From contig OZ025887.1 of assembly GCA_964019415.1 (NCBI GenBank), positions 447,501 through 511,500 of the forward strand: a stretch of DNA of 64,000 nt. The letters run 5' to 3'. The DNA is from Ianthella basta. Taxonomy: Eukaryota > Porifera > Demospongiae > Verongiida > Ianthellidae. Of the stretch, positions 9,701 through 53,352 are shown piece after piece. The notes below the pieces were generated by a model. The model ran no database searches. It saw nothing but the letters and a program-made list of their open reading frames with translations, and was not told the DNA's origin. The translations under genes and the position numbers were made by a program. Every line of letters starts with the position of its first letter. Within the stretch, counting starts at the first letter, position 1.

Positions 9701-12700
9701 AGCTCAAGTAATAGGAGGAGTGAAGTACCAGCAGTGGAGTATGTGACAACTGGAACAGCAAGTGAGCTGTACTCACTACCTACTGTAAATCACATCAACT
9801 ATACATAGCATGTATACAATATAAAAGTCATAGCTCAGTCCATCACTCTATTGGTGCCTCATCTTTGAAATGTCCAGTATGGAATGTTGCATAGGAATAG
9901 AGTGAAGGATCACTGGTAAAGAGTTACAATTAGGCGTACTCATGCAAGCCTATTATGGTTTTGTGTAACATCACACACATAGAGACCCTCAAACAGAGAT
10001 ACTCAGTGCTGTCTCTGCTGATTGACTTACCCTACTATTACATTAAGTGTCAACAAAATCATCTAATATTTGCACCTTTCAGTGCTATAGGTGTTACACT
10101 ATCACCACCTGATCAGTTAGGTTTGAAGTGCTTCTCATTTGCCTCATAGAATCATCAGTGCCAAGATTGCTAACCATTACAAGAATGCTGGAAAAGAAAT
10201 TAGAACTGAACTGGCTACCTCCTACTGAGCCCAATGGAGAGGTGCAATACATCATATACTACACACCAGAAGGTGGCACAGAACAGTCAATTTACACTGG
10301 GAGCAACCTGACCTATTTCAACTTGACAGGACTTGAGAGGAACCAACTGTACATCAACATTGCAGTACAGGCTGTCAACTCAGCTGGGCGGTCAGACAGG
10401 AGTGTAGCTATAACACGATACAATCACGCACCATCTGGTGAGCTGCAAACAGCAGCAACGCAAACGGATACTGTAGGATTGGGAGTATGCTAACACCATT
10501 TCTTAAGGGCATCATAGTAACTGTTGACAGATGGTCATGCTTCCTCATCATTGGGTCTTCCTGCTCAATCCGTCAGTTTGTTAGTATTGCCATTCATTTT
10601 CTATTCATAATTTTCTGTACAGATGTTAATGAGTGTGCCATTGACAATGGTGGCTGTGAACAGGTGTGTAACAACACTGTTGGCTCCTACTACTGCTCCT
10701 GTCACTCTGGGTACAGGCTGGATGTTGATGACCACAGGTGTCATGGTGAGACATACGTAGATGATTGTATTGTGTAGATTTTGTGAGCACTGTGGTGCTA
10801 AAACATGTGTAGCACGTGTCCTGGTGCATGAATGAACATAACATTATACGCAATTACAATTAACAATTCTGCGTGAGCATTTACTCACAGTTCTGCACAA
10901 ACAGGCTTACAGTGGTCACCCTGTTACCACTGATTGCATGCCTCCATTGCAGATGTTAACGAGTGCTCCACTGGTAATGGTGGCTGTGGACACACATGTA
11001 ACAACACCATTGGCTCCTACCACTGCTCCTGTGATCCTGGGTACAGGCTGGGTGATGAGGGTCGGAGGTGTCATGGTGAGTATCACAAATCCTACCCCAC
11101 AGATCCTGCAGGCAGCTCTGTAATGGTCAAGTAGAGCATGCATGATTGATTACATCTACACAGTATAGTATATAGTGAGCAATCTACTGTATCCTAATTA
11201 ATATACCAGAATTATTTCTCATAGTGAAGCTGTAACACCTCCCGTGTGTAGATTTTGTGAGCACTGTGGTGCTAAAACATGTGTAGCACGTGTCCTGGTG
11301 CATGAGTTGACATTTACAAAGAAGGCTGGCTCAAATCAACACCAGGCCTTGTTTTTTGTTCACACTCCTACATCTTCAATATTTATACCGTGTCTCTCTA
11401 CACAGATATCAATGAATGTGCTGAAGGTACAGCAGAGTGCAACCAGATCTGTGTCAATACCCAAGGCAACTACACATGTGACTGTTACCATGGATACAAC
11501 CTCTTAACTCCTTATGACCACACTTGTCATGGTAAGACGTAGTGTCTGTATGTCAATGTACAATGCAACAATGTAAGCTTTGCACTCACCTACTGACAGA
11601 CATTGACGAGTGCACCACTGGTAATGGTGGCTGTTACCACAACTGTAACAACACTGTTGGCTCCTACCACTGCTACTGTCGTACTGGGTACACACAGGAC
11701 AGTGATGGTCGCAACTGTAATGGTAAGTGTTGTAGTGTGAGCTAACTGTGTGGTGAAGCTAGATGATATGTGCTCTTTTCACAGATGTTGATGAATGTGC
11801 AGAGAACACAGATGGCTGTGAGCAGATATGCACAGACACTGATGGCTCCTTTCAGTGTTCCTGTAGATATGGGTTCCGTCTTGGCAGTGATGGGAGGAGC
11901 TGTGATGGTAAGTGTGCTACTAAGCTTCATAATCCGTTGTACAATAATTATTCCTTGTATGTTGTATACTTCATTATGGGTCTAAATAATTATTAAAACA
12001 TATGATGTATGTCTAAGCTAGGGTACACTCATTTGGATCTCCTGCAGACATTAATGAGTGTGCCGAGGATGACCACGTTTGTGCCCACAACTGCCACAAC
12101 TCTGTTGGAAGTCACTCCTGCAGTTGTAATGCTGGGTACAGGTTGAACCCAGATGGAAGGAACTGCGATGGTGAGTACAGGGCAAGTGACAGCTGTCTGG
12201 TCTGCAGGATTGACTTCTCTATTGATCTTTCCCGTCCATTCCATTCTCTATGCAGACATCAATGAATGTGCTGAAGGCACTGCAGGTTGCAATCAGACAT
12301 GTACAAACACTCCTGGCAACTACACATGTGCCTGTTACCATGGATACACTCTCAGCACTGCTAATCGCCACATCTGTCTTGGTGAGTACCTGGTGTGCAT
12401 TGAATGTCCTTCACTCCAAGGAGCAGTACTGTAATATGATTTTGCTTACTCTGTGCAGATGTTGATGAGTGCTCCACTGGTAATGGTGGCTGTCAACACA
12501 ACTGTAACAACACTGTTGGCTCCTACCACTGCTACTGTCGTACTGGGTACACACTGGACAGTGACGGTCGTACCTGCAATGGTAAGGGCTGTAGTGTGAG
12601 CTAACTGTGTTACATGTTGTGCAGTGCGGACAAGTAATCTACACGTGTGCAGGCTTGTAGCTACAGTGAATCTTTGCTTTCTCATCTACTGTATCTCAGT

Positions 12701-15700
12701 CTACAGTATCTTGTATCTCAAGCTAGATGATATCTGCTCCTTTCACAGATGCTGATGAATGCACAGAGAACACTGATGGCTGTGAACAGATGTGCACAGA
12801 CACTGATGGCTCTTTTGAGTGTTCCTGTAGAGCTGGGTTCCGTCTTGGCAGTAATAGGATGAGCTGTGATGGTGAGTGTGCTACTAAAGGTTGCCTGCAA
12901 GTACATGCAAGCTCCATAATGCATAATAATGCATTAACTATAGTGTATAGATATGCACCTATAAGTTCTTCAATGCTTCTATTGCACAATATCTAATGCT
13001 TGCATATTGTAGCACGGTTTGTTTGACTGCGAAGGCAATCTGCTGGTTATCAACTTGGCTCATGTATTGCTGCAGTGCCAGCAACGTACTGTTTCGCTTC
13101 TTTGTTCAGCTGGAGAAATGCACAATCAATCAGGACTAGCAAATCTTCTCTGAAATCCACTCAGCCTTCCATCCTCTTGTGGAAGTGGTCCAACCAGTCA
13201 CCCCAGCTCCCTTCACTGCAGAACAATTGTGATAGTACCAGGGGATGCACTGTGGTTGGACTCAATCCCTGCTGTTCCTCTTGTGCCATCTTGACTTTCC
13301 GTAGCTAGCAGAAGGCAATCCTGCCGATTATGCCAATGTAATTGCGACTACGTAGCTAAGCTGGAAGTTGTTGTAACTCAGGGATGCACCTCGGGCATGC
13401 AACTGGTCACCAATACAAACTGTGCTACACAAAATTATGCACTTCGCTGAATAATAACTCATATACATTATGTAGATAGGTCAACTATTGTTCTGCAGAC
13501 ATTGATGAGTGTGCTGAAGATGACCACGTTTGTGCCCACAACTGCCACAACTCTGTTGGGAGTCACTCCTGCAGTTGTAATGCTGGGTACAGGTTGAACC
13601 CAGATGGAAGGAACTGTGATGGTGAGTACAGGGCAAGTCTGGAGGAGTATATTTTGCACCCACACACCCACGCACGTGTGTGTGTGTGTGTGTTTGCGTG
13701 CGTACGTGTAAAACTGTACTTGATTGTAGTAATCATAGTGCATATTCAGGTTAAGGAAAATTTGCAATTGAAAGTTGTTCCAAACTGTGCCAATTGTAGC
13801 GGGGCCTTCAGGACACGACAACGAACTGGTCACCATGGAGGTTCAACTCACAATGAACAAGAACACGCACCATGTGGTCGTAACCAAAAACATGCATACA
13901 AAGTAACATAAGAATTTTAAGTAGGCAGCATGCGTACACGTGACATAAGAATAGCGTGACGTAAGAATGATAAGTAAGCAGGATGCAACCACATGACATC
14001 AAATACAGATGATTACAAAATAGAGTGAATACATATAGTGGCTACATACAAGGTAACATAACTCAAGTATGTATGCATGCATGAGTATTGTCAATATACT
14101 GTCACACAATGGAAGTGAGCATGAGAAGTATCACAGTATATCATAAATGACACTAGTGCTGATTGGCATACATCAGAAAAGCACTAGTCGTGAGTGTAGG
14201 AATGCCCGTAACAGTAGTAGCAACCCATGGTTGAGCATGGACACACAATAGTCCCATTCATCATGGAATCAGCCAATGGGACTGTTTATTGCTGTCCTCT
14301 AATGTGCCAGTAGTGTGGCAAATTGTACATGTACATTGTTGTTCGAGCCCTACACCTTATACCATGTGCACAAAAGACACATTCCTAAAATCTTCAAGCA
14401 TACAACGCGTGGTCAAAGTATATTGCAATATTCCTTGGTTAAGGGAAAGTCATAAAGCATATGTCCATGTCTAGTAAAAGTCTTCATTTGATCTCCAACC
14501 TAGCTCCTTTTGCTCCTCTCCACTCCACTACACAGACATCAATGAATGTGCTGAAGGTACAGCAGAGTGCAACCAGATCTGTGTCAATACCCAGGGCAAC
14601 TACACATGTGACTGTCACCATGGATATGACCTCCTAACTCCTTACGACCACACCTGTCTTGGTAAGACCTAGTGTCTGTATGCCAATGTACATTACAATA
14701 GCATAAGATTTGCTCTCACCTACTGACAGATGTTGATGAGTGCATCACTGGTAATGGTGGCTGTCAACACAACTGTAACAACACTGTTGGCTCCTACCAC
14801 TGCTACTGTCGTACTGGGTACACACAGGACAGCAATGGTCACAGCTGTAATGGTAAGTAATAGTGAAGTTAACTGTGTGGTGTGATGTGTAGTGCAGACA
14901 AGTGCATGCTCTGCAGGCTTGTAGCTACCAAAGCTACACGATATGTGTTTCTTTACACAGACGTTGATGAATGTGCACAGAACACTGATGGCTGTGAACA
15001 GATGTGCACAGACACTGCTGGCTCTTATCAGTGTTCTTGTAGAGATGGGTACCGTCTTGGCAGGGATGGGAGGAGATGTGAAGGTGAGTGTACGTACATA
15101 ACTAGTTTCAAGATTGTGTGTAGGCAAGTACGGAACCCTTACCAATGAGGACGTGGTACTCCTAACAATGTGCTGACATGGTCATAAAGAGTATGCTTGA
15201 GCTCTTACTAAGTATGTTTTGACATCTCGTGAAATAGATGTAAACGAATGCTTTGTGGATGCTGACGGATGTGCACACAACTGCCACAACACTGAAGGTG
15301 CTCACAACTGCAGCTGTGATGAAGGGTACATGTTAAACCCTGATGGAAGGAACTGCAACGGTGAGCAAGAGAAGGAGAACTGATGTGGTCAAAGTGGACC
15401 AGGTGCATGCCTTCGTTGAACATGAAATCTTCCCTTCCATTGTCTCTAATCCTCTTCACAGACATTGATGAATGTGCTATGGGCACACACCTGTGCAACC
15501 AGATCTGTGATAACACTCCCGGCAACTACACATGTGCCTGTAACCATGGATACTCTCTTAGTACTGCTAATCAATACACCTGTCATGGTGAGTCATGATC
15601 AGTGGTGTGTTCATTGTCACTATATGGACCTTATTATGACATTGACTCTGCATGTCTGTTCTGACAGATATTGATGAGTGCACCACTGGTAATGGTGGCT

Positions 15701-18700
15701 GTCAACACAACTGTGAGAACACTGTTGGCTCCTACCACTGCTACTGTCGTACTGGGTACACACTGGACAGTGATGGTCGCAACTGTAATGGTAAGTGTTC
15801 ATGCAGATGTTGTAAAACCCTCTGGAGCAGCCATGATCAGTAGGCTGCACTAGAACAGTTAGTCTGACTTGACCTGTTCTATGTATCTCCTTCACTATAA
15901 TTATGTATAAGAACATCCCATACTCCGGTGTGTGCTAGGACCAATGTCATAGTGTTACTTTCTACCATTTGCAGATGTCAATGAATGTACTGCACATACC
16001 GATGGCTGTGGACAGGATTGCACCAACACTGTTGGGTCATTTATGTGTTCCTGTGGAGATGGTTTCCGTCTTGGTAGTGATGGGAGGAGCTGTGAAGGTG
16101 TGTGTGCTACTATATTAATGTTATTTTCATTTACATCCACTCTGCACAGTATAATGCACATTTGCAAGGTCACTAAACTCAAAGTATTTGTGACATGTGC
16201 ATCTCTTGGATCTTCCTGTAGACATTGATGAGTGTGCCGAGGATGACCACGTTTGTGCCCACAACTGCCACAACTCTGTTGGTAGTCACTCCTGCAGTTG
16301 TAATGCTGGGTACAGGTTGAACCCAGATGGAAGGAACTGTGATGGTGAGTCATATCTGATAGGGGGTCATATGTGGACGTGCCTTCCCATGTGTATATAC
16401 AAATTTACTCAGACAATGGTTTCATTCTACAGATATTGATGAATGTGTGGAGAACAGTGATGGTTGTGAGCAGATGTGTACAGACACTGATAGCTCTTTT
16501 CAGTGTTCCTGTAGAAATGGTTTCCGTCTTGGCAGTGATATGAGGAGCTGTGATGGTGAGTGACCCATTAGAGATACGTCCGCAATTGATTAAATTTCAC
16601 AGGGTGTGTTCATTCTGGAAAAATCTCATATTTTCCAAATGTCCAATGTAATTCATGTCCACATTGACAATCACTGTGATATCGTGCTACGTAGGTATTA
16701 GGCAATCCCCAATTTCTATGTGCATGGCACATACAGGTAGTTGTGTAGTCTGTTCAATTCATATGTGCATGCTTATTATACTGTATACATAATATTATAT
16801 ATATCAATTGTGGAAGCCAAGTGAACAATTGTAGCCCACGTAATTGTAATGCTGTACTTTTACCTATAGTTAGTAGTTTAATCTGATATGAATGGCTAAT
16901 TACTACGGTCTCCATGCAGACATTGACGAGTGTGCTGAGAATGACCACGTTTGTGCCCACAACTGCCACAACTCTGTTGGGAGCCACTCCTGCAGTTGTA
17001 ATGCTGGGTACAGGTTGAACCCAGATGGAAGGAACTGTGATGGTGAGTACAGGGCAAGTGACAGCTGTCTGGTCTGCAGGATTGACTTCTCTATTGATCT
17101 TTCCCGTCCATTCCATTCTCTATGCAGACATCAATGAATGTGCTGAAGGCACAGCAGGTTGCAACCAGGCATGTACAAACACTCATGGCAACTACACATG
17201 TGCCTGTTACCATGGTTACACTCTGAGCACTGCTAATCATCACATCTGTCTTGGTGAGTACCTGGTGTGTATTGTATGTCCTTCACTCCAAGGAGCAACA
17301 CTCTAATAAGGCTTTGCTCACTCTGTGCAGATGTTGATGAGTGCTCCACTGGTAATGGAGGCTGTGGACACACATGTAACAACACCATTGGCTCCTACTA
17401 CTGCTCCTGTGATCCTGGGTACAGACTGGGTGACAACAGGCGCAGATGTCACAGTGAGTGAATGGAATGCATTGTGTCAGTCCAGTGAGCACTCTGTTGT
17501 GTCCTGTACCAGTTAGTGTACACTGCAGCTGATGTAGGATTGGATGTATGCTCATTACATCATAGTCTGCATGTCCTCTGTGTTGTGAGCATTTTGCCAG
17601 TGCTTGAGGCAGTAAGAGCTCCTATCATATGCTGTATTGATTCACAATTTCAGATATTGATGAATGTGCAGAGAACAGTGATGGCTGCGAGCAGATGTGC
17701 ACAGACACTGATGGATCATTTGAGTGTTCCTGTGGAGATGGGTTCCGTATTGGCAGTGAAGGAAGGAGCTGTGATGGTGAGTGAACTGCTGGAAAGATGT
17801 GAGAAGGCTGATTGAAATTCACAGGGTGTTCTATTTTAGATTGAATTCTCAAAAGAGTCCAATCAAATCAACACTGACAATCACTGCAGCATGGTGCTAG
17901 GTGTTTGGGTGCATGNNNNNNNNNNNNNNNNNNNNNNNNNNNNNNNNNNNNNNNNNNNNNNNNNNNNNNNNNNNNNNNNNNNNNNNNNNNNNNNNNNNNN
18001 NNNNNNNNNNNNNNNNNNNNNNNNNNNNNNNNNNNNNNNNNNNNNNNNNNNNNNNNNNNNNNNNNNNNNNNNNNNNNNNNNNNNNNNNNNNNNNNNNNNN
18101 NNNNNNNNNNNNNNNTGAGCCTGTGCAACCCCCAATTTCTAATAATATGCGGTAGTTACAAGTGAGTGTTAGTCCATTGTTTCATATGCCTACATATTTC
18201 TATTGCCAACAATAGTGCAGACCAATTCAACAACTAGACTACATTATTAGTTCCAAAATGGCAGTCATGCACTCCAATTAGTATACAGTGTGTACTGTAC
18301 AGCTTCAGACTTTACTGGTCATGTATTACTTCAGGGATATAGCAATACGTACTTCTTTGGAGACCATGTAGTAACGTTATACTCTATATTTGTGCACAGC
18401 TTTCGCTTCTCCCTTCTTTGACATCCTATACATAAGGCCATGCAATGGGCATACCCTTGATCCTTTCTTTCTTGACTTTGCATCAAGTATAGTAGTAATA
18501 TTGGTCTCCTGCAGACATTGATGAGTGTGCTGAGGATGACCACGTTTGTGCCCACAACTGCCACAACTCTGTTGGGAGTCACTCCTGCAGTTGTAATGGT
18601 GGGTACAGGTTGAACCCAGATGGAAGGAACTGTGATGGTGAGTACAGGGCAAGTGATAGCTGTCTGGTCTGCAGGAATGCTTTCACATCCGATCTTCCCT

Positions 18701-21700
18701 GTCCCCTACATTCTCCATGCAGATGTCAATGAATGTGTTGAAGGCACAGCAGTTTGCAACCAGAGGTGTATGAACACTCCTGGAAACTACACATGTGCTT
18801 GTTATCATGGATACACTCTCCACTCTGATAATCGTCATATCTGTGTTGGTGAGCATCTGATGTGTAGTGCGTAACATATATAGTCAGTGTCCTTCACACC
18901 AACTTGCAGAGCAGTGCTCAACAGAGACTTTGCTTACTCTGTGCAGACATTGACGAGTGCACCATTGGTAATGGTGGCTGTGGACACACATGTACCAACA
19001 CCATTGGCTCCTACTACTGCTCCTGTGATCCTGGGTACAGACTGGGTGATGAGGGTCGGAGGTGTCATGGTGAGTGAATGGAATGCATTGTGTCTGCCTA
19101 GTGACCACTCTGTTGTATCCTATACCTGTCAAGTGGGTGTAAACTAGTTTAGGATGGTATATATGTATGGTCATTACATCATAGAGTCTGTCCTTTATGT
19201 AGCAGACATCCCATGCAGCTAGAAAGGCAGTAAGACTTCCCAATGCATGTTCTTTCCAATCACATTCCTAAGACATTGATGAATGCACGGAGAACACTGA
19301 TGGCTGTGAGCAGATATGCGCTGACACTGATGGTTCTTTTGAGTGTTCCTGTAGAGCTGGATTTCATGTAGGCAGTGATGGAAGGAGCTGTGACGGTAAG
19401 TTCACACTGTTCATTGGAGTACACAAAGGATTGTGCTTTAAAGTAGTTAATTCTGTAAGCATCCTGGTAGAGACAAAGTGATCGATATTCTACCCTATCA
19501 CAATTAGATGTTATGGTATATACGGTGTAGTTGAGATTAGGGACCAGCAGAGCTATTCTTTAATAGCAGCCAGGTCTTGAAAAGAGTCCGGATTTTAAAT
19601 GAAACTGGGCCTTGAATTAATATTATAACTAATCTGGATTTTAATTAAGAAATAGTGCACATGTTACTGTAGGCTCCAGATGCAAAACTCAACTAGGTTG
19701 AGACTTTGTCTGCAAGACTTAGAGTGAGTGGGTATGGAAAGCATCTTAGAAAGTCATCCTCAATTCCTGCACAGAACTTGCTTGCAAAGATGTGGTTTAG
19801 AAGTTACCTAACCTTGCTTCTCTCAAAGGGGTGATCTAACGTCATAGCACTCATTACCACTGGCAAACACATTACACAAGTATATATAGCAGCCAAAGTC
19901 AACTGGGAGTTGTACATTTGATCACTTCTGTACCCATCTTGACCCATATACATTGTGCAGATATTGATGAGTGTGCCACTAACAATGGTGGATGTGAGCA
20001 CATGTGTAGCAACACATTAGGGAGCTTCTACTGCACCTGTCCAAGTGGCTACTATCTGATATGGGATGCAAGACGATGCGAAGGTACGATTGTGCAAAGT
20101 CTGCATTGAATGTCAGAGTTTATGTGAAGTGAACAGTTTCTTTCCTCTGACTGCAGAGTTCATTGAGAATGCAACAGTTGGTTGCCCTATCAATCCTGAG
20201 TGGGAGATGGATGTTGGTGACATTCGGTGCAATGACAGTGACTGTGTTATCTCTATTCTGCTGCAGTTAGTGGGGTACTTCCTGGATACTGATGGTGACA
20301 ACATAGGGGACTATACCGATGACGGTGACACTTTCAGTACATACTTTGACCCAGAAAAATCAATCTGCATTACTGACATACTGAAGGCACTATTAAATGG
20401 TAACCAGTATAACATTGTCTTGCCATTCAATCCCATTGTGAGTTGGTACTCCTTCACCAGGAGCACACAAGTTTCAATCTGTCAGCTTCTGCCCATCACT
20501 GAACAGGAAGTCGTCTACCCTGGCATTCTGTGGCTGAGTGACATTGCAATCACTGTGGAATTGGTAGGTATCACTGACCCACAGATCTACCAGATAAGGC
20601 AGCAGGGCACTGGACATGTGGGTCACATTGTGTTTAGTGAGGCAGTAGTGAACGCTTCTGCTGGCAGATGGTACATTGAAGGAATGAGGGCTGTCGGCCA
20701 ATCAAACCTGCCACTTACCAATGTGATTGACATTTTCTCTCTTCAAGCAGTCTTCTCCACACCGCTAGACATCTCAGCATGGAATGTTGACATTGAGAAT
20801 ATGTTTGCTGTGTTTGACTTCTCACAGCTCACTGTGGCAATTAATATCCGTGGCACACTTCACATCAGCTTGTGGCACTCTGTGAGTGTATGCATGGTCT
20901 CTCAACTGAGCCTTAACCCACAAGACAGGAGGGACAACCACTTTGCAATTGTAACAGACTGCAATAGTGACAAGCTCGAGACTGGTTCATTCTCCTTGGG
21001 TGAGGTTCTGTACAATGTGGCACAGGTGAACATTGGTCCTGTGTCACAGCTGAACAACTGGAACCTAGGCCACTTTCAACTGTTTCTCACAGGAGCATCC
21101 TCCTTTGCCCTTGATGAGGACACGGCTGCTCTACTGCAGTTCCACATCAGCTGCACCTCTGTCCTTGCTGAAGCTGTGGGATCGTCCATCTTGGTTGATC
21201 TTTCATTCGCACCACCTCACTTCTCTTTTGACCCCAGCCATGCTGGACACTGCAATATGGGAAGGCCTTTCTTCATACAGATCATGGAAGAAGAAGATGG
21301 CAGAATGGCTCACTTTGTCCCCGTAGAGTATTTGGCGGTTTCTTACAGCACCTTCAGACCACACATCATCTCTAACATCACTATTGATGAGTTCATGAAT
21401 GCTCTTGGCCTAGAAGGCTTACAGGAGGCACACAGTACACTGCTAGGAGGAGGGGCTCTTGGACTAAACAACATTAGCACCATTACTTATCTAGTCTCTG
21501 AGGCAACAATCAAAGTGACTTCCTTCATCAGTCGTACGCTAATCTTAGCTGATGGTTATGTCGAAACCCACAACTTGTCCTTAATCACACAGATTAGCTT
21601 CACTAATGAGGAGGTTGGAAAAATGGCCTTCCTTACTGGAAAGTGCAAACATTTGAAACTGGACTTTGATGTAAACATTGATCTTGACTTGGAAGAAGAT

Positions 21701-24658
21701 GCATACAGGTTTAAAGGCTATAACCCTTTGTCAGTCAACCAGAGAGCCTTGCTAGCTGATCTCGGCCTTTCATTTCAGAATGAAATTGCTCTGAAGTTCA
21801 TTGGTCTGTTTGATTTTGAGCTGCATCAACCATTCATCACCATTACATCTGACTCAGGGGTGGAGAATGAGGTTAGAGAGGGAGAAGTCTGCATAGGAGG
21901 ATTGTTGGTGCCTGGTCCTGACAACCCCTTTATTGGGAATGCTAACTACTCTGGTTGTGTCACTAATGGCAATGTACAGTCATCCACAGCAGGGTGGGAG
22001 ATTGCAGGGTCATCACTGATCAGCCTCTTAGAGCCTTACACAGGTGAAGTGGTACACCAAATACCATTCCTCAATACTAGGACCAGAGCCTTAGTGGTTT
22101 TCAGTGACACAACCCTCCCTGTGTCTCCACTCAACGGAGACTTGCTGAGTGAAGTTAACATCATGCAAGGCACATTCGTCTTTGTGCAAATGACGTACCC
22201 AACAATATGCAAGGACATGTGTCAGTTCGTCATGCTATCTCAAGAAGAAGGTTTCCACTTCCAGTTGAAAATTGGAATCAGCATTGATTTTGGAGTGAGT
22301 TCTGAAGGCCGCAATTTTGCAAACAAGAACAGCATCAGTTCTGAGGAGCTCCATGAGTTAGGAGCAGTTGTGGAAGTGGCAATGACATTCCCATTAGCAG
22401 ACTTCCAATTTGGTGCAGCGAGGGCAAGTGGTGCCAAGTATCATTGCGTAGTGGTATCTGACTTTAGCAGTAACTCCAACAGTGCTGTGGTTGAGTACAG
22501 TGTTGCCATACCACTCACTCTGCATTTTGATGACCCACAGTTTGAGCTGCTTGGGCAAGTGGAACTGATGTTCCCAGAGCATCAGCTAGTACTCCAGGCT
22601 GCTGGTGATGGGTGTGTGAGGCTGTCCAGCACGTTCTCCATCTGCAACATTCACCTTGTCTTCACTGTACCTACAGACGGTGATCAATTGCCAGGTTTTG
22701 TCTTCTCAGCACAGCCTATACTTGGTAGTGCAAACTGTGCAGCTGCAGGTCCTCTGCCATACACTGCTGTTGTTACAATCAATCCAACATTTGTGTACGT
22801 AGAAATTGATGAGATATTTACTGTAGCTAATCTCATGGAATACTTCTGTGTGGATACAGGAAAGGTGTCTAAGGTCCTTCGAGAAGCTACATTTCCACAA
22901 GGGCTCATCTTCTCTCACGGGGCCAACTCTGTTACTGTCGGCTACTCCAACGTTGACGTAGACAATGGCCAACTCGTACGAGGCACAGTAGACCTCTTTG
23001 GTGTCAGTGCATTCACTGAGCTCCACCTCAACTTGCCTACCTCCTTGACACTTGTGGCTGTGATGGACCCCATTAGCATGTCAAGAGGCTTCATCAAGAT
23101 GACAGCAAGCAGAAGTTATCGCTACCATGGTCCGTTGTTCTATGGTTCTTATGATGCCAGCGATGCTTTGAATCCAGTGGTAGCCACTAATGCATCGGGC
23201 AGTGTTAACGTCCTGGGTCAAGATATAGATGCAATGCTCGTGGTTGATGACAATCACCTCAGACTTGCTCTTGATGCATGGGTTTACCAGAGGGTGCATG
23301 TGCACATTGAATGTGAAGCTAGTTATGGCACCCCACAGAATGCAGCATTCAGTGTCATTGGTCATGTAACTGACAAGTCCCTTGGTGTCACTGTAGACTC
23401 CATTGACCAGATGTACCAGCAACGCTCCCAGTATGTGACCGCAGTTACTAAAGTAGCCTTGGATCGGGTTTCCAGGGCAACAGAGACTTACAATGATGCA
23501 ACAGCTGACCACAGTACATTGGAAGAGTACACTTTGGCAGTTACAAGGAAGGAAAGGGAAGCCTATCATGAACTGGCTGACGTGCAGTACCAGATAGACC
23601 AGTGGTGCCCAGTGGACAGCATTTGTGATGGTAAGTGTGTGAATAGTGTGTAGTAGCAAGATGCTATGAGAGACTGTAGCACTCTATAATGTATGATTGA
23701 AGAAGCCTGTCTCTGTCTCTATAATGTATGGTGGTCTGGCGGTATACTACTGCATGGGACGTACAAACCAAATGCCAAGCTTGCCTTTTGTGTATACAAT
23801 TGTTCTGAAGTCTCCTCCCTACTTTGGCTGTACATTGTGTCTGTTGTTCTACACTCTCCCTATACAGAGTGTGTGGCACATGACAAGTGTGCCAAGATAT
23901 CATTTTACAATCTTCTTGTGCGAAACAGTCCTTGCTGCCTAAGGAAGCAATCTACCACTTGTCGCATGAAGGCATTCGAGTGCTGGATTGTTCAGGAGTC
24001 CATCAAGACCAGCATTAGAATGGCTGCAGCAGTGTGGCACTCCGCTGTCATTCAACGTAACCTTGCTGAAACCCTTCTGCTTGCATCTGGTACCTTTAAA
24101 GAAGAGGCCAGTGAGAGGCTGCAGGTTGCCACTGATGCACTGGACACAGTCCTGGGTGCTGTGTCAGAGGATATTGGTTTTGTTTCCAGAGCTAGTAAGT
24201 TGTTAGGCGATGCTGTTGAGGGAGAACTGAGTTCTGTTATTGACGTGAAGGCAATACAGTGGGAAGTGGAGATGTCCCTGTTCAAACGCTTGGAGTTTGA
24301 TGTCAGCATTACTGCTGGCTTCACTGGCCAGACACTGAAGACCTGCACTGGTCATGTCGTGCTCCACGAACCTACCTCTCACATGAAGGCCATCTTGTGC
24401 TGCCTGTTTGACTCATTCTGTGAAGACACACAGAAGAAGAGATTCAAGAAATTGAAGCTGAAGCCACTGGTGTAAGTTTGTTGTGCTGTTGCTTCCTCAT
24501 GTACATGTGCTTTTGTTGGTCGTATAATTTGCTGTACCTACCATGGCACACATTGTGATGTAGCATGTTTTGATCCTGTCTTCCTCTGACCTCTTCCATG
24601 CAGGCTGGCTGAACTCTACTATCACACTGGGAACCCCTTTGGAGAGAGGGTTAGGTAG
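687..24658 (+). CDS. Gene 1: giant secreted IPT/PA14/FN3/Ig/cbEGF protein (5' partial)
   Basis: This is a multi-exon gene whose start lies before the window. About 46 exons can be chained by GT/AG sites with consistent phase, almost all phase 1. With both copies of the first EGF exon the chain is 10,832 nt, which reads without a stop as about 3,609 residues ending at TAG 24656-24658. Domain order is EGF, EGF copy, three IPT/TIG, PA14-like, FN3-like, Ig, an unassigned domain, two FN3, 28 cbEGF, a 1,158-residue unassigned region with a coiled coil near its end, and a 220-residue C-terminus. No membrane helix is visible, so I infer an extracellular matrix or secreted adhesion protein. The first EGF and the cbEGF array are paralogous to genes 2 and 3 downstream. 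The IPT-to-FN3 segment and the C-terminus are not. Exon borders are read by eye, without transcripts. Confidence 0.85.
1161..2355 (+). mobile_element. 5'-truncated LINE (non-LTR retrotransposon)
   Basis: Reading from about 1172 the sequence encodes the reverse transcriptase palm: [25 protein letters not shown] and the catalytic FADDLV motif at about 1579-1596. The C-terminal conserved parts YGCEAWAL and [10 protein letters not shown] follow at 1939-2224. The reading frame is broken by stops (for example at about 1661) and at least one frameshift, and the endonuclease part is missing, so it is a dead 5'-truncated copy. It ends in a short GC-rich hairpin and an ATTG microsatellite (2340-2355). 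A 12-bp target-site duplication, AACAATTGTAAA, flanks it at 1149-1160 and 2356-2367. Clade not assigned; the microsatellite tail is compatible with RTE-like families. Confidence 0.85.
2641..2684 (+). pseudogene. Truncated copy of the IPT exon start
   Basis: After a good acceptor (tacag) the sequence matches the start of the intact IPT exon at 3466 ([12 protein letters not shown] in both). It then runs into a TAG after GGI and breaks off into the TG-rich microsatellite that starts the second duplication unit. If spliced in it would end the protein, so it is most likely skipped. It marks the downstream edge of the duplicated unit. Confidence 0.75.
2999..3094 (+). CDS. EGF exon (gene 1, duplicated copy)
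   Basis: This is a near-identical copy of the exon at 687-782 with the same acceptor context and donor, produced by the local tandem duplication. It encodes [20 protein letters not shown] and ends in the same phase. It joins in frame to the first intact IPT exon at 3466. Only a few residues differ from the first copy (YT to LN, Q to R, N to D). Confidence 0.8.
3466..3851 (+). CDS. IPT/TIG domain 1 (two exons)
   Basis: Exons 3466-3607 and 3689-3851 (phases 1-2 and 2-0) encode one immunoglobulin-like fold shared by plexins and transcription factors. It begins [19 protein letters not shown], has the [10 protein letters not shown] strand, and then the RPLRCTT strand. This matches the pattern of the IPT repeats in fibrocystin/PKHD1-like proteins: V.P..GS..GGT, then I.G..C.V, then I.C.T. 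It is the first of three IPT units leading to a PA14-like region, an order known in PKHD1L1-type proteins. It acts outside the cell; ligand unknown. Confidence 0.75.
4066..4402 (+). CDS. IPT/TIG domain 2
   Basis: A single exon of 337 nt (phase 0-1) encodes [19 protein letters not shown], then [32 protein letters not shown] and a tail ending in LIMLEVFP. The spacing of the glycine-rich opening, the two cysteines and the PPGVYNVSV strand follows fibrocystin-type IPT units. It sits between IPT 1 and IPT 3 with short introns. Assignment rests on pattern, not on a search. Confidence 0.7.
4485..4718 (+). CDS. IPT/TIG domain 3
   Basis: A 234-nt exon (phase 1-1) encodes the clearest IPT unit of the three: [19 protein letters not shown], then [19 protein letters not shown] and [11 protein letters not shown]. 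The opening S..P..G...GGxxxTI.G and the paired cysteines are typical. It directly precedes the PA14-like exons. Confidence 0.8.
4784..5764 (+). CDS. PA14-like domain (four exons)
   Basis: Exons 4784-4922, 5006-5140, 5372-5540 and 5624-5764 join in frame. They begin [20 protein letters not shown] and continue with [12 protein letters not shown], then [17 protein letters not shown] and [18 protein letters not shown]. The order of a PDxPD loop, a strand Y.x.W.xSDNxxxLFF and a strand GETYxLxAxxKE is that of PA14 folds, which bind carbohydrate or calcium in other proteins. Its place after IPT repeats recalls PKHD1L1. The last exon ([12 protein letters not shown] to EETPQ) may belong to the following unit. 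Confidence 0.65.
6222..7010 (-). mobile_element. LINE 3' fragment on the minus strand
   Basis: On the minus strand the sequence encodes the C-terminal LINE motifs [22 protein letters not shown] and [11 protein letters not shown], ending in an untranslated region with a GC-rich hairpin and an ATTG-type microsatellite (about 6222-6245). The layout matches the LINE at 1161-2355, so the two belong to one family, but this copy is only the 3' end. A stop interrupts the frame just after TYGCES. It lies in the long intron 5765-7291 of gene 1. The intron ends near 5930-6030 and 7030-7085 share inverted CGAATATTCG-like sequence, perhaps from an older DNA element. Confidence 0.7.
6779..6928 (+). mobile_element. 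Short hairpin insertion carrying a hammerhead-ribozyme-like core
   Basis: A 150-bp insertion lies within the minus-strand LINE, flanked by the 14-bp direct repeat AAACCTTCTTCATT (6765-6778 and 6929-6942), which looks like a target-site duplication. It contains a perfect 30-bp inverted repeat (6776-6805 with 6872-6901). The loop holds CTGATGA (6820-6826), a 6-bp stem GGTGAC/GTCACC (6828-6833 with 6840-6845) and GAAACGTC (6846-6853), the conserved core of a hammerhead ribozyme. Hammerheads are known in the terminal repeats of Penelope-like elements and in non-autonomous retroelements. Family membership here is inference, and stem I is weak. Confidence 0.55.
7292..7679 (+). CDS. FN3-like domain exon (gene 1)
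   Basis: This 388-nt exon (phase 0-1) encodes [15 protein letters not shown] and then a fibronectin type III-like stretch. It has [13 protein letters not shown], a strand [29 protein letters not shown] and [15 protein letters not shown]. The W, the Y/T pair before ATIT and the closing strand match FN3 B, F and G strands. The first 40 residues, with three cysteines, are not part of a clear FN3 and may complete the preceding region. Confidence 0.6.
8013..8324 (+). CDS. Immunoglobulin domain exon (gene 1)
   Basis: A phase 1-1 exon of 312 nt encodes a full Ig fold. It has [11 protein letters not shown] with the B-strand cysteine, YTWTC with the core tryptophan, and then the signature [12 protein letters not shown] with the F-strand cysteine, ending GNITLNVA. 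Two extra cysteines (TCPIGPC) sit after the tryptophan. The 1-1 phase is that of a shuffled domain exon. It lies between the FN3-like exon and an unassigned exon. Confidence 0.85.
8549..8576 (+). other. Degenerate hammerhead-like motif in an intron
   Basis: CTGACGA (8549-8555), a 4-bp stem GACC/GGTC (8557-8560 with 8566-8569) and AAAATGTC follow the order of the hammerhead core at 6820-6853. The stem is shorter and a conserved G is lost. It is probably a decayed copy of the same repeat family. It lies in the intron 8325-8742, where I see nothing else. Confidence 0.3.
8743..9039 (+). CDS. Unassigned extracellular domain exon (gene 1)
   Basis: A phase 1-1 exon of 297 nt encodes about 99 residues beginning [20 protein letters not shown]. 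It contains two cysteines (RITC and AYCNDF) and ends YTYLFLSGR. Its length and symmetric phase suit an Ig-like or other beta-sandwich domain, but the usual Ig tryptophan and DxGxYxC motif are absent. Function unknown. It continues the frame between the Ig exon and the FN3 exon at 9462. Confidence 0.65.
9290..9440 (+). pseudogene. Partial copy of an FN3 exon
   Basis: Positions about 9295-9360 repeat the opening of the FN3 exon at 10150 ([21 protein letters not shown] in both). They then diverge into [16 protein letters not shown] and stop matching. A fitting acceptor/donor pair of the right phase is not evident, so it is most likely a decaying duplicate exon in the intron 9040-9461. Its match shows that the FN3 exons here have also been duplicated locally. 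Confidence 0.55.
9462..9761 (+). CDS. FN3 domain exon (gene 1)
   Basis: A 300-nt phase 1-1 exon begins [20 protein letters not shown] and includes [13 protein letters not shown] and [16 protein letters not shown]. The P-rich start and the [10 protein letters not shown] strand are FN3-like (usual form LxPxTxYxxxVxAxN), although the B-strand tryptophan is not obvious. It ends at A before gtgagc at 9762. Confidence 0.6.
10150..10437 (+). CDS. FN3 domain exon (gene 1)
   Basis: A clear fibronectin type III unit in one 288-nt phase 1-1 exon. It begins [20 protein letters not shown] and has the core WLPPTEPNG, then [31 protein letters not shown] and SAGRS. All the usual strands are present: W.PP..PNG, Y.I.Y, LTGL....Y.I.V.A.N..G.S. 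It is the last module before the cbEGF array. Confidence 0.85.
10623..13621 (+). CDS. cbEGF array of gene 1, part 1 (10 exons)
   Basis: Ten phase 1-1 exons each encode one calcium-binding EGF with the D[IV][DN]EC start and six cysteines. Type follows each: 10623-10745 C, 10953-11075 C, 11406-11531 B', 11600-11722 C', 11785-11907 D, 12048-12170 A, 12256-12381 B, 12459-12581 C', 12749-12871 D, 13499-13621 A. B-type exons are 126 nt, the others 123 nt. Most types have the Cx[DN]x4[FY]xCxC hydroxylation consensus, but type A has His in place of the aromatic. Such arrays form calcium-stiffened rods. The two first C exons carry an identical repeat of about 61 bp in the introns after them. Confidence 0.9.
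10771..11305 (+). repeat. 61-bp intron repeat pair
   Basis: Positions 10771-10831 and 11245-11305 appear identical over about 61 bases (start TGTGTAGATTTTGTGAGCAC). Each follows a C-type EGF exon (10623-10745 and 10953-11075). This points to a recent tandem duplication or conversion of exon plus downstream intron. Confidence 0.8.
12872..13498 (+). other. Intron of gene 1, no further feature seen
   Basis: A 627-bp intron between a type D and a type A cbEGF exon. Apart from a short direct repeat around GCGAAGGCAATCTGC (about 13030) and a similar AGAAGGCAATCCTGCC (about 13310), I see no gene or named element. Confidence 0.5.
13622..14535 (+). other. Intron of gene 1 with short repeats
   Basis: A 914-bp intron. 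It holds a short CA/TG microsatellite (about 13660-13700) and an imperfect tandem repeat around 13900-14000, in which units with ACATAAGAAT/CGTAAGAAT and AAGTAGGCAGCATGC/AAGTAAGCAGGATGC recur. No coding signal was seen on either strand. Confidence 0.5.
14536..17776 (+). CDS. cbEGF array of gene 1, part 2 (13-exon shared block)
   Basis: Thirteen phase 1-1 cbEGF exons: 14536-14661 B', 14730-14852 C', 14961-15083 D, 15238-15360 E, 15462-15587 F, 15668-15790 C', 15975-16097 D, 16222-16344 A, 16433-16555 D, 16920-17042 A, 17128-17253 B, 17331-17453 C, 17654-17776 D. The same order of types is found in gene 2 (41284-44556) and gene 3 (58118-63750), so this block predates the gene duplications. Type E ([13 protein letters not shown]) and type A lack the aromatic of the hydroxylation consensus. 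The 85-bp intron 17043-17127 is identical base for base to 12171-12255. Confidence 0.9.
17916..18115. other. Assembly gap of 200 N
   Basis: Exactly 200 N interrupt the intron 17777-18514 between a D and an A cbEGF exon. The homologous intron of gene 2 (44557-45104) reads straight through the matching place: GGGTGCATG at about 44685 is followed by CCTGAG and a run of C, just as GCATG precedes and TGAGCC follows the gap. The true missing length may be small, and no exon need be lost. Confidence 0.85.
18515..20083 (+). CDS. cbEGF array of gene 1, part 3 (5 exons)
   Basis: Five phase 1-1 exons: 18515-18637 A, 18723-18848 B, 18947-19069 C, 19273-19395 D, and 19961-20083, a divergent C-like unit ([20 protein letters not shown]). 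The first four form one more A-B-C-D block. The last is the least homogenised EGF of the gene and joins in phase 1 to the large exon at 20157. The intron 19396-19960 (565 bp) shows nothing I can name. Confidence 0.9.
20157..23630 (+). CDS. Large intronless exon: 1,158-residue region of unknown family (gene 1)
   Basis: One open exon of 3,474 nt (phase 1-1), about 28 times the length of its neighbours, encodes 1,158 residues with no stop. It begins [19 protein letters not shown], has an acidic loop [15 protein letters not shown] that could bind calcium, then long alternating hydrophobic stretches that suggest beta strands, with scattered cysteines and N-glycosylation sites. Near the end (about 23400-23600) lies a helical, charged stretch with coiled-coil character ([20 protein letters not shown]), followed by [10 protein letters not shown] do not recognise the family and no catalytic motif stands out. 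Genes 2 and 3 have nothing comparable; gene 2 ends in a membrane helix instead. The acceptor at 20156 and the donor gtaagt at 23631 are good. Confidence 0.85.
23868..24658 (+). CDS. C-terminal exons of gene 1
   Basis: Exon 23868-24471 (phase 1-2) follows the large exon. It encodes a cysteine-rich start ([15 protein letters not shown], then [19 protein letters not shown]) and a long, probably helical middle part ([20 protein letters not shown]). It ends with [12 protein letters not shown] and the basic [12 protein letters not shown]. The last exon 24604-24658 adds [17 protein letters not shown] and TAG. No membrane helix or GPI signal is apparent, so the product should be secreted. Family unknown. 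The donor used is the gtaagt at 24472. Confidence 0.75.
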
Positions 24659-26338: not shown

Positions 26339-28688
26339 ACGTACTTGATTGTTGAGCTGTATTATGTTTGACTTAGCTAGTAGATGTTAGCTATTTGAGG
26401 ATAGAAACAGCTTGAGGATATCTATACGAGAGACGTCGGTTTCACGGTTTGTCCCACGAGATCACCTTGCGGTGTATCGTAACATAGCCAAAAACGCTGT
26501 GCAACTACCGCCAATTGAAGGGTATAGTGCACGGCGAATAGCTAAACCTGTTAGCGATAACAGCTGCGTAGACGCGACCAAAGGTGACAGAAAAATCGTG
26601 CGATGTTCGAAAGCGAGCGAAGAGAGGATGGTACGGTCAATTTATCGCAAGCATCGAATCGTGCAACTTTACTTTGAACGAAGGAAACATAGTTGTAGGT
26701 ATGCGCGTAACAGATATATTGTTTGAGCTGCACTTGTCTTGAGTTCACACTCTTCCTAGCTCATTTGACCAACGCTCTCGCGCGTTCTTGTTACTACGGA
26801 ACTTCTTCACGTGCAGCCAGCAACCGTAAAGTTTCACCCCACTCCTTTAAGGAAAACAAAGCTGGAGATCCTCCGAAGCACTCCTCTGTCTTCTTCAGCT
26901 CAGTGAACTAAGTAAACCCTATGTTAAAGAATACCATTTTACTGTGTTTACTCTAGGTGTCATTCCATTCATTTCATTTAATATTTCATTATTATACTGG
27001 AATTCCATGCACTTAGTCCTAATAGACTACTTTCCAGGGAGCCCATGCAGTAATGGGTCTGGCTCCTGAGTTGAGAATCGTTGAATTGGCCCTGTGATGG
27101 CAGTTTTATACGGGTGGCAGAGTGGGGAAGGGGATCCCAAAGGCAAGTACAAACTCTGGTATAGGAACAGGTAACTTTTGCCCTAAGCTTGCTCTTGAAG
27201 ACATTCAAACTCTTCTCTGACTTCTTGAATAGCTATTTGAGTGGGGTATAGATGGTGACTAATCCAAGTTAGGGGCTTGAGCCTTATGCAGCAGTTTGTT
27301 AGTCTGCCATACATTAGTGTGAGTAGCAATATTTACATGCATGTGGTCTGTGTTGCTCTTGCTACCTGCTGTGCAATGGTTAATGTTCAAGTAGTACAAT
27401 CTAATAACTCAAGCTAAGAATGGCTTTAGTCTTAAAGCAACCCATAATCGTCTTTCGTCTCAGGGAACACTTGTTTATGCCCCATGCAGTGTGTAGTAGT
27501 CAGAAGTGGCATGACCCTTCCCTGTAGAAGGTTCAGGTTCCATCACTAACATTGATTTGTGCATTCTGTGACTAAGTTACAGCCCAATCAGATTACAGGA
27601 AAGGTATGCCGCAAAACATGCATATCTGCGAGTGGCAGCAGAGCAGGGAGCATTCTACACTGTGATGGAAGACATCCAGCAACTTGGCTATACAGCCACG
27701 AAGCCAGAGTAGCTTTAAATTGTCCCTGCTTCATTTTTGGTTAGAATGTCTTTGCAGTTTTACTGACTGACTTTGGGCAGAGGCTGTTTCTGGTGCCTTC
27801 TAGTGGTGTTCGACCTATATTATTGCTGATCAGAGAGTCATCAATTGTCCTTACTGTCTCTCCATTGAAGGCTATATTATAAAAGATCAGGTAAATTCAT
27901 GTACAAATTGCACTATTAGCTGATGGGAAATTTGAGCTACTTAATATTGTACAATCATTTTAAATTTTCACAATTAAGAAAGATCGACAAACAGCAAAAT
28001 TAATCTGAAATAACAATAGGCACTCATGCGCACTGCCCATATTATAGTGTTGCACCACTGAGTGGGCAATAAGTCAGTGGAATAGTCGATGGATTGCTCC
28101 TCAGAGAGCTGATTCAGAAGGTCAATATGGCCTCAGTCACTGGGTGCATGGTGTTATGATGTGGCTTCCTATAACTATGTTATGCATGTTATGTTATGCA
28201 TACACGCTGGCTCCCTAATTGTGTTATGCTTATTTTGTTATACAAGGCACTAGTAGTGCATGCATGTGTCTGGTACAAATCATTTATCTATTATACGTAT
28301 AATTATAATATTTAACAAATGATCTGCCGCCCCTTATGCACGTATGAAGCAGCATAGTATGGGGCAATGCTCAGTTAGCAGAGGAGCTATCCTGCTGCCT
28401 TGCTTTGGGGAGCATCCCTCTTCTCACTTAGCATTGAAGCCAACTATCTGAAGAACATAGTAGTGCTTCAGACACCGGGGAGTTTTTGCGACCCACTGAG
28501 TCACAAAATTCATGCGAAATAAAATGTAAAAAGTTGTGTGCATACAGTATGATTTTGGTAAGTTCTTCTGCCAGGGTGAAACCACTGCACCATCCCTACG
28601 TCACACTTGTTTCGTTTCCCTAGTAATTACAACAAACCCTACAAGTGCTAATTTCTGTTATAGTGTGTAAAATGTACTCTTCCTACAG
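26339..28688 (+). other. Probable 5'-UTR intron of gene 2
   Basis: No convincing coding sequence. Several blocks match the corresponding 52039-53210 region of gene 3: the segment with TCCCACGAGATC (about 26450), the GTGCAGCC/AACG stretch (about 26810), TAGTAGTCAG (27493), GGCAGCAG...CAGGGAG (27630), CGCTGGCTCCCTAATT (about 28205) and GCAGCATAGTAT...CTTCTCACTTAG (28348-28432). The region ends in a pyrimidine-poor acceptor TCCTACAG, conserved in gene 3 as TCTTACAG. Confidence 0.55.
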
Positions 28689-28711
28689 ATCTCAACTGGA
28701 AAAAGACTTCA

Positions 28712-28830
28712 ATGGGTTTGCAGCTGTGCTGGGCTCTTCTGAGCGTCCTTCTGGTGTTAGCCATCTCTCAGGAGGGAGGTGCTACCTGCACTTGTCCCTC
28801 AAATGGATGCCGCCAAAGCCCATCCACTGG
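28712..28830 (+). CDS. Signal-peptide exon of gene 2
   Basis: The first coding exon, preceded by 23 nt of untranslated exon after the acceptor at 28688. It encodes [19 protein letters not shown] and then [20 protein letters not shown], a classical signal peptide with probable cleavage near GGA/TC. The start is supported by the hydrophobic leader directly after the ATG and by the matching exon of gene 3 at 53240. It ends in phase 2 at GG before gtaaga. Confidence 0.9.
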
Positions 28831-30842
28831 GTAAGAATATTGTGTTTAGTCTACGTACATGCAAAGAGTCTGACATGCATTATAATTATGATGGTAGCAC
28901 CTGAATCCTGGTGTAACTTAGTCTTGCTCAATAAGAGGAATGCATGCAAAGATGGTTTGACACATATGAGACTAGAGGCAACACTGCCACTACAATTTAA
29001 ACCCTGCATGCATGCATACAGTCATGATTGCTCCAGTGTACAGAGACTAATTTCATTGAAATGGAGTAGGACTCCATTTTCCTCTGTAGGACCTTGTAAC
29101 ACATGTCCTTTCGGTTCTGGCACAAGTATTAATTTGATACTGCTGTCTGTGATTCCTTTTTGGCACATTACCCCACTCTAATCAGTGCCCGCTGGTGCTG
29201 GAATGAGATTTCATGGTTATTGCTAGCTGGAGAATGTTTGACCAATTTGTGAAGAATTCATTAGTTACCAATGGTTAAAGCCACACACGCAGGACTGTAC
29301 ATGAAATTATATACCTAATTGTACCTATAATACCTATAATACTTTTGTGTATCTATAAACTCTGTATTCAGTGTGTGTAGTGTGTAACAGTAAGCACCTC
29401 AGATACTTGGATCAGGTTGCAATCAAACAGAAACAAGCAAATATGTCAATATATACCATGCATACAAAGTGACAAAGACGCAAAAGATATTGTGAAGCTA
29501 CAATGAGATGCGTAATGCCGGTCACATGATGTGCGTATTGCGTGATTACAGGAAGTAAAATGGTGTTACAAGAAGTGTTAATGGTAAATGTGCAATAATC
29601 AATATGACCTGCTAATCATGCAACACAAACAATACCAGTACACTACTTGTGTATTCACCTCATTGTCATGGACTATGCTGTGCTTACATGAATGTTTTCA
29701 TCTGTGCTTGATATACTCTATTTTAACTTGCTCTTGTGCTGCAGTTTATGCCATGCACGTGGTTCTAGGGCTGCTTCGTATCAGTCCTCTTACTATGCAA
29801 CGGATTACTACTACCAAGCATACACAACCAGCTGTGGCTTTTGGGGGTGGAGTCGATGCCGCAGAACAAGGCGATTGTAAGCATATGTATGGTTATGTAT
29901 TTCATAGTATGGTACGAATGTAAGTTGGGATTGGTGTACAATATGCATGCAACATCACTTCCTAATTCATGCACTCATCTATACATTTCATGCAGATTGC
30001 AAACTTTGTCAGAATGCTTTAAAACTGTATACATTCTAGAAATTCTTTAGTGGAGATTGAATTGACCTTGTCAAAGTTATTCAACATGCACTGGATGCAA
30101 TCATATGCATATTCTGATAGATACATAGTTTGATCTGTGGTCTCTAGTCTTTAGAGGTACAAACACTGCACCATACTTTGCCACAATCACCCCGTTTGCA
30201 GAAATGAATAGCAGATATGCTGGAACAATTTAGTTGACCATACAGTACAAAGTACACAGTAGGGCAGGGACAAAGCTTTGAACTAGTCAAACTTTCAATT
30301 CTTTCTAAAATATTTCAAAGCTTTTTATAAGACACTAAGCTTTGGCAAGCTGTTACCAGTCAGTTTGACTATATAGTGTGAATATAGAAGAGTATAGTGA
30401 AGCCCAACAAACATAGCTATCTGGACATATTCTTTATGATGTCCATGACCATCACATCATAGCTATAGGTAGGTCAGGTAGCTGTTTCCATACATCAGTA
30501 CATTCCCTTCATGGTAATGGTTAATGTTTTTATGGCATTGTCTATATGTAGGTCTAGACAAGTTGTAAGGTATCGAACTTCCTATCGGACTCAGTACTAC
30601 TGCAGACTTCAGTGTTGCACTGGATATCGACAATTGGGACAAACCTGTGTCCGTAAGTGCTCAATATAATTATTTGCTATCCATGACTCACTCATGATCA
30701 GTAATACAGTGTCTTGAACAAGACCTTCACACACACACACACAACACCTATGCAGTAGCCCAGTACACAGTTGCCTGACAATCCCTATGGTGCAGGGTCC
30801 AAATCCTACTTCACCCATTCTCCCTCTTTCAAGTTTGCTTGA

Positions 30843-53210: not shown

Positions 53211-53239
53211 ATCTCAACTATAGCTAGAAAAGGATTCCA

Positions 53240-53352
53240 ATGGGTTTGTGCAGTACTGTTCTGATCATCCTTCTGGTGTTGGGCATCACCCAGGAGGGAG
53301 GTGCTACCTGCACTTGCCCCTCAAATGGATGCCGTCAAAGCCCATCCACTGG
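53240..53352 (+). CDS. Signal-peptide exon of gene 3
   Basis: It encodes [18 protein letters not shown] and then [20 protein letters not shown]. The leader differs from gene 2 in most positions and is two residues shorter, while the 20 residues after it are the same in both. It is preceded by the conserved acceptor at 53210 and about 29 nt of untranslated exon, and ends in phase 2 at 53352. Confidence 0.9.

Follow-up and report, generated by a model that had tools for sequence, protein, structure and literature searches.

Close to the 3′ end of gene 1, an EGF-array gene in the window (the whole 64,000-nucleotide stretch of Ianthella basta DNA analysed here), lies a large plus-strand exon at positions 20157–23630. 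It is 3,474 nt long and of phase 1-1, with 1,157 whole codons and a split codon at each end, and is spanned by a plus-strand open frame of 1,197 codons (20060–23653); the chance of one such frame at the local base composition is about 10^-29. The borders read from the sequence are an acceptor at 20157 (...ctgcag^AGTTC) and a donor after 23630 (...GATG^gtaagt), and the splicing of gene 1 given here is likewise predicted from sequence. The original prediction of a 3.47-kb open exon, phase 1-1, among exons of about 123 nt is confirmed by this frame and its splice borders. An EGF exon of 123 nt (19961–20083) directly precedes the large exon, and an exon scan placed 24 EGF exons of 123 or 126 nt upstream of it at 10623–19395; the scan required phase 1-1 and favoured lengths near 123 nt, and it thus speaks for the existence of such exons and not for their share. 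The EGF_CA-type array as a whole occupies 10623–20083 of the plus strand (24 scanned exons; 28 EGF_CA-like places by pattern) and includes a 200-base gap of Ns at 17916–18115. Both of the array exons tested pass the Pfam EGF_CA cut-off, with FXa_inhibition scoring higher. Two 96-nt EGF exons on the same strand (687–782 and 2999–3094) probably also belong to gene 1, and their best Pfam match is EGF_Teneurin, with EGF_2 nearly equal. A signal-peptide-like frame about 2.4 kb upstream of the window is taken as the putative first exon. Behind the large exon, whose product we refer to as the module, is a plus-strand exon at 23868–24471 encoding a Cys-rich segment, helices and beta strands, with borders read from the sequence; a similar exon lies behind the module copies on contigs C18, C20, C21, C3, C23 and C7. 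The presumed last exon, also read from the sequence, is at 24604–24658 (plus strand) and ends in TAG.

Genes 2 and 3 are paralogues that by eye resemble gene 1 in having a signal-peptide-like start together with short EGF and EGF_CA exons; the starts at 28664–28831 (gene 2) and 53228–53353 (gene 3) are similar to that upstream of gene 1. They had been predicted to lack the module, and a search of the genome agrees: at E ≤ 1e-3 the window's part of contig C20 contains no second module match, and none follows before 2.256 Mb, so genes 2 and 3 are without it. Gene 2 differs from gene 1 in having a transmembrane-like hydrophobic stretch (at ~49.0 kb, by eye) behind its EGFs in place of the module, and so it may be a membrane-bound counterpart of the secreted-type gene 1. 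This stretch and a basic tail were seen by eye at about 48900–49150. Cys segments at 30469 and 54111, in genes 2 and 3, look EMI-like to the eye and gave no match in Pfam. Gene 3 extends past the end of the window, and between its EGF exons (60719–63484) lies an array in which a 10-base unit, TCATCTTGTC, recurs about 277 times with 82% matches, giving rise to long open frames of repetitive sequence.

The module consists of two diverged repeats of about 235–250 residues, a core of about 265 residues and a C-terminal helical stretch, as judged from sequence profiles (all coordinates on the plus strand). Repeat 1 (20351–21055, aa ~65–299) is beta-rich by pattern, and repeat 2 (21329–22075, aa ~391–639) matches it in profile comparison, with an hhalign E of 4.4e-9 in the 12-copy alignment (reversed control 0.039) and 6.6e-8 in the 10-copy alignment. 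The core (22541–23338, aa ~795–1060) is the part homologous to bacterial proteins (see below); it also has a weak profile match to repeat 2 (E 8.2e-4, given without a reversed control). Two predicted amphipathic helices of coiled-coil-like character (23396–23605, aa ~1080–1149) follow, assigned from the periodicity of 12 copies and from a low-confidence model. Of the features named in the original prediction, the acidic loop is present at 20285–20329 (aa 43–57) and is confined to two of the ten aligned copies, this one and that on C18. The regular hydrophobic alternation, which is beta-strand-like, is weak in the window copy (lag-1 z of −3.4 over aa 1–1060) and becomes strong on averaging 12 copies (z −8.1). 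The coiled-coil-like end appears as helical periodicity when the last 95 columns are averaged over the 12 copies (z 3.2 at lag 4 and 3.9 at lag 7), and is absent from the window copy by itself (aa 1061–1150, z 1.0 and 0.7 at these lags). Structure prediction, proposed along with these features, yielded two single-sequence AlphaFold models of window fragments with mean pLDDT values of 35.4 and 32.0, too low to use as structures or to assign a fold; in the former, block means over the helix region are 43–67.

The module had been described as a region of no recognised family, and searches of Pfam, NCBIfam, PHROGs and PDB sequences agree, none giving a significant match. The lowest E value in the family searches is 0.013, to one PHROG and from one of ten copies; PHROGs gave weak scattered matches only, as did PADLOC with the bacterial proteins described below, and searches of PDB sequences ended either without a match or with matches that were weak or due to chance. 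No relatives were found in viral contigs or phages, or in two scans of prokaryote genome contigs that depend on short peptides. The DUF6603 profile (PF20248) has no match in the genome or in the six plasmid records described below, and is also silent in 14 control genomes; DUF6603 is likewise absent from the hmmscan listings of the sponge module and the bacterial proteins. No description of the module was found among literature titles, which does not in itself prove that it is unpublished.

In the 21-kb mitochondrial contig of this genome COX1 has TGA in frame (TGA=Trp), and a 78-residue frame was identified by eye as atp9, features that together suggest a demosponge. Within its own genome (209 Mb in 96 contigs, with match counts that are lower bounds) the module is one of many. 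At least 23 stretches match the window copy and at least 22 match another copy used as query, and together these make up at least 16 loci, spread over seven contigs and including that of the window. In twelve loci a single open frame spans the complete module without interruption. These are the window locus, those on C18, C20 (2.256 Mb), C21, C3 (7.083 Mb), C23 (1.904 Mb) and C7, and five on C17. At three others (C20 2.307 Mb, C17 3.804 Mb and C3 7.068 Mb) the module is incomplete or disrupted. In a second C23 copy (1.921 Mb) the reading frame changes in mid-module, at 5300–5480 of its stretch, giving two frames, through a frameshift, an intron or an assembly error. There are thus at least 15 loci besides that of the window, and a one-off capture in this gene is not supported. 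The identity of the copies to the window copy falls as low as 15%. For seven computed pairs of the 66 possible, dN/dS is between 0.20 and 0.41, and the window exon is under purifying selection, with a value of 0.28 against the C18 copy, to which it is 74% identical.

Two properties recur across these loci. One is that none of the 12 whole copies has an intron within the module, and phase-1 borders on both sides could be read in ten of them, the window copy included; the C7 copy is left out of this count, its border not being settled. The other is the company of EGFs. Within the stretches examined, EGF_CA-like sequence lies upstream of the module in 11 of the 12 whole copies, and therefore the joining of module and EGFs probably predates the duplication of the loci. 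The exception is the C7 copy, for which 23.4 kb upstream was searched and no EGF_CA-like sequence was found. One C17 copy has its nearest EGF_CA-like sequence 10.3 kb away, past transposable-element-like frames; the minus-strand frames of this kind that separate the two are at 812–3719 of that stretch. Homologues both split by introns and always linked to EGF arrays, the pattern that the original prediction had set against a captured gene, are not what the genome holds: no introns were seen in the whole copies, and the C7 copy has no EGF_CA-like sequence in the 23.4 kb searched.

Outside the sponge, the only match of one C17 copy in a tblastn search of 72,556 plasmid records is one Streptantibioticus plasmid (two records, E 2e-4). 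The C21 copy finds the same place at E 0.1. Plasmid searches with the window copy or with one from C23 give no bacterial match at E up to 1. The matching frame in Streptantibioticus pSCAT (P0001) is 1,204 residues long, and chained searches from it led to relatives in Priestia (WP_252282221.1), Herpetosiphon (ABX07633.1), Mycetohabitans (WP_338911921.1), Calothrix (BAZ36677.1) and Hymenobacter (WP_243803070.1); further chained matches include Paenibacillus (mostly beyond the core) and Deinococcus plasmids (the helical tail region only). The six relatives are unannotated plasmid proteins of 998–1,527 residues. A profile of the core from 12 copies (aa 795–1060) matches Streptantibioticus at 1.1e-8, Priestia at 2.2e-8, Herpetosiphon at 2.1e-6, Mycetohabitans at 5e-6, Hymenobacter at 4.9e-4 and Calothrix at 0.01, and reversed controls against the same six proteins give E values of 0.19–0.46. 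With the 10-copy full alignment the corresponding values are 1.3e-6, 4.6e-6, 1.6e-4, 5.8e-5, 0.0064 and 0.087, Calothrix being weak in both comparisons. The 12-copy profile matches a five-member bacterial profile at E 1.2e-15 (reversed control 0.16), where the bacterial profile omits Hymenobacter for its proline-rich insert and is built from fragments picked after the alignments were seen.

HMMER scores the Streptantibioticus protein at 19.0 bits with the 10-copy profile (E 0.014 per nominal million sequences), and the best of 200 shuffled controls scores −2.3. Run in six frames over the six whole plasmid records, the family profile matches three, each once and within the relevant gene, and the other three are without a match. 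In the reciprocal direction the Streptantibioticus protein finds eight places in the 209-Mb genome at E up to 10. Six are family members (8.8e-6 to 0.0076), as is a seventh (1.44), and the remaining one, at 9.3, does not belong to the family. The core is about 17–27% identical to the bacterial proteins in a collinear match of up to ~260 residues; for Herpetosiphon, Hymenobacter and Calothrix the homology extends over 63–115 columns. The profile match is thus significant, collinear and reciprocal, with negative controls, as is expected of a new core family shared with bacteria, and on these sequence comparisons the sponge core is homologous to unannotated giant bacterial proteins of at least four phyla, those of Streptantibioticus, Priestia, Herpetosiphon and Mycetohabitans. 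A search for bacterial homologues, which the original prediction had called for, therefore succeeds for the core. For the N-terminal repeats no bacterial match is clear: the best, against Priestia (8.1e-4), falls in the region also matched by the core, and the one after it has an E value of 0.0031. For the exon at 23868–24471 there is nothing beyond the reversed controls in the six proteins (best 0.01, Hymenobacter).

The bacterial giants and the sponge module have the collinear core in common, and the homology seen is confined to it. They differ in that no EGF match is listed for the bacterial proteins, whereas the sponge module sits behind EGFs. Repetitive, helical-looking tails lie past the core in several of the bacterial relatives, Herpetosiphon among them; the homology seen does not extend to these tails and the terminal helices of the sponge module. 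No Pfam match below E 0.04 was seen for the Streptantibioticus, Priestia and Herpetosiphon proteins. Among the six, the strongest Pfam matches are Fibrinogen_BP (6.5e-9) and PhageMin_Tail (0.0022), each in one member, and the strongest others are RuvA (NCBIfam, 0.0047) and ZorA (PADLOC, 9e-4), again each in one. The gene neighbours differ between the records. An Exo_endo_phos-matching gene (4964–5971 of its stretch) is directly upstream of the Herpetosiphon giant gene, a Calothrix gene 33% identical to it (1897–2937 of its stretch) is directly upstream of the giant gene there, and GH108-annotated genes are near those of Mycetohabitans and Hymenobacter.

A system that invites comparison is that of the teneurins, for which a bacterial origin of the giant module behind the EGFs is proposed (PMC6297184, PMC13018210); the former describes a choanoflagellate teneurin gene whose extracellular part sits nearly entirely on a single giant exon, read there as a sign of gene transfer. 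In teneurins as in gene 1, a giant module with bacterial relatives stands behind an array of EGFs, and the best match of the gene 1 short EGFs to EGF_Teneurin concerns the short EGF type only. The two differ in several ways. Teneurins have RHS/YD repeats and an NHL propeller, and the gene 1 module has neither: hmmscan against Pfam lists no RHS or NHL family for the window module or the ten aligned copies at E up to 10, or for two further copies at E 0.1, and gene 1 is not a teneurin because its module is without such a match. Teneurins are type-2 membrane proteins, and gene 1 may instead begin with a signal-peptide-like start. The bacterial relatives are also different, being YD/RHS-repeat proteins for teneurins and other, unannotated giants for gene 1. 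The parallel to the teneurin proposal lies in the occurrence of the core in at least four bacterial phyla, the intronless module and the early linkage to EGFs.

Our best explanation, which taken as a whole we regard as about as likely to be right as wrong, is that gene 1 encodes a secreted protein with an EGF rod and a new module, an undescribed domain family, whose core is of bacterial-like origin, and that it has a matrix or adhesion role. The product would have a signal peptide and then two short EGFs, about 24–28 calcium-binding EGFs forming a stiff rod, the single-exon module of ~1,100 residues and finally a helical end rich in Cys. A bacterial-like intronless gene would be the source of the module or, at a minimum, of its core, and the fusion with an EGF gene would have preceded the duplication of most of the loci. 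Outside the cell the EGF rod could hold out the module as a large beta-rich surface for binding or self-association, and the terminal helices may serve in multimerisation; the architecture is what suggests the matrix or adhesion role. A long beta groove that binds lipid or some other hydrophobic ligand would also suit the amphipathic alternation of the strands, and near the Streptantibioticus relative there are a polyprenyl synthetase frame and, just upstream, a frame with a JHBP match. We consider such a groove unlikely, since the JHBP match is sub-threshold (E 0.0023, 17.6 bits, cut-off 29.2) and is found in one of the six records, the neighbours differ elsewhere, and the structure models are too low in confidence to use.

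The origin of the module is where the alternatives diverge most. Capture of a bacterial gene behind EGFs, by analogy with the teneurin proposal, is plausible. Counting against our explanation are the absent tblastn matches of the window and C23 copies and the marginal one of the C21 copy, the three plasmid records without a match in six frames, the weakness of Calothrix, the want of a clear bacterial match for the N-terminal repeats and the following exon, and the two prokaryote scans that yielded no relative. Capture by exon shuffling, as originally suggested, accords with the symmetrical 1-1 exon, the bacterial relatives for part of the module and the lack of introns in the 12 whole copies, but not as a one-off event. 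The clear donor lineage that was to support it did not emerge, the matches coming from several phyla and covering only the core. The module family may instead be old and vertically inherited, the relatives compared here being those in its own genome and in prokaryote and viral sets. An old animal or eukaryotic extracellular domain, with the bacterial proteins as distant cousins or recipients and with introns never gained or lost, is a serious contender that we rate somewhat short of an even chance: the copies diverge to 15% identity with the window copy, the EGF linkage is shared by nearly all whole copies, and the core is only distantly similar to the bacterial proteins, yet all 12 whole copies remain intronless amid intron-rich EGF arrays and the bacterial relatives span at least four phyla.

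Two further readings carry much less weight. Reverse transcription of an intron-bearing host gene into an intron of the EGF gene, with subsequent exonisation, would explain an intronless module between phase-1 introns, but no intron-split relative is among the own-genome matches (whose counts are lower bounds), and we regard such retroposition as improbable. Convergent beta-strand patterns in place of homology are, if anything, a shade less probable still. They might account for the low identity and the beta-rich repetitive composition, and for the four single-copy plasmid searches, two of which had no match and one a match at E 0.1 only; however, reversed sequences keep both composition and alternation and yet give E values of 0.16–0.46 against 1e-8 to 1e-15 at best for the forward comparisons, and the core match is collinear and reciprocal. 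Returning to bacterial capture, its most specific form is a second teneurin-like event in which a giant non-YD bacterial protein entered the animal (perhaps sponge) lineage intronless, was fused behind EGFs and expanded to at least 16 loci for secreted proteins, and this we put forward as a rather doubtful proposal.

It is unusual for a large module with no family in the searched libraries to occur in part both in an early-branching animal and in scattered bacteria. The 12 whole copies make the capture reading testable across sponges, choanoflagellates and bacteria. Even without capture, this is a domain missed by current annotation in sponge and bacteria alike; if capture is true, it would be a second case, beside the teneurins, of how animals built giant extracellular proteins.
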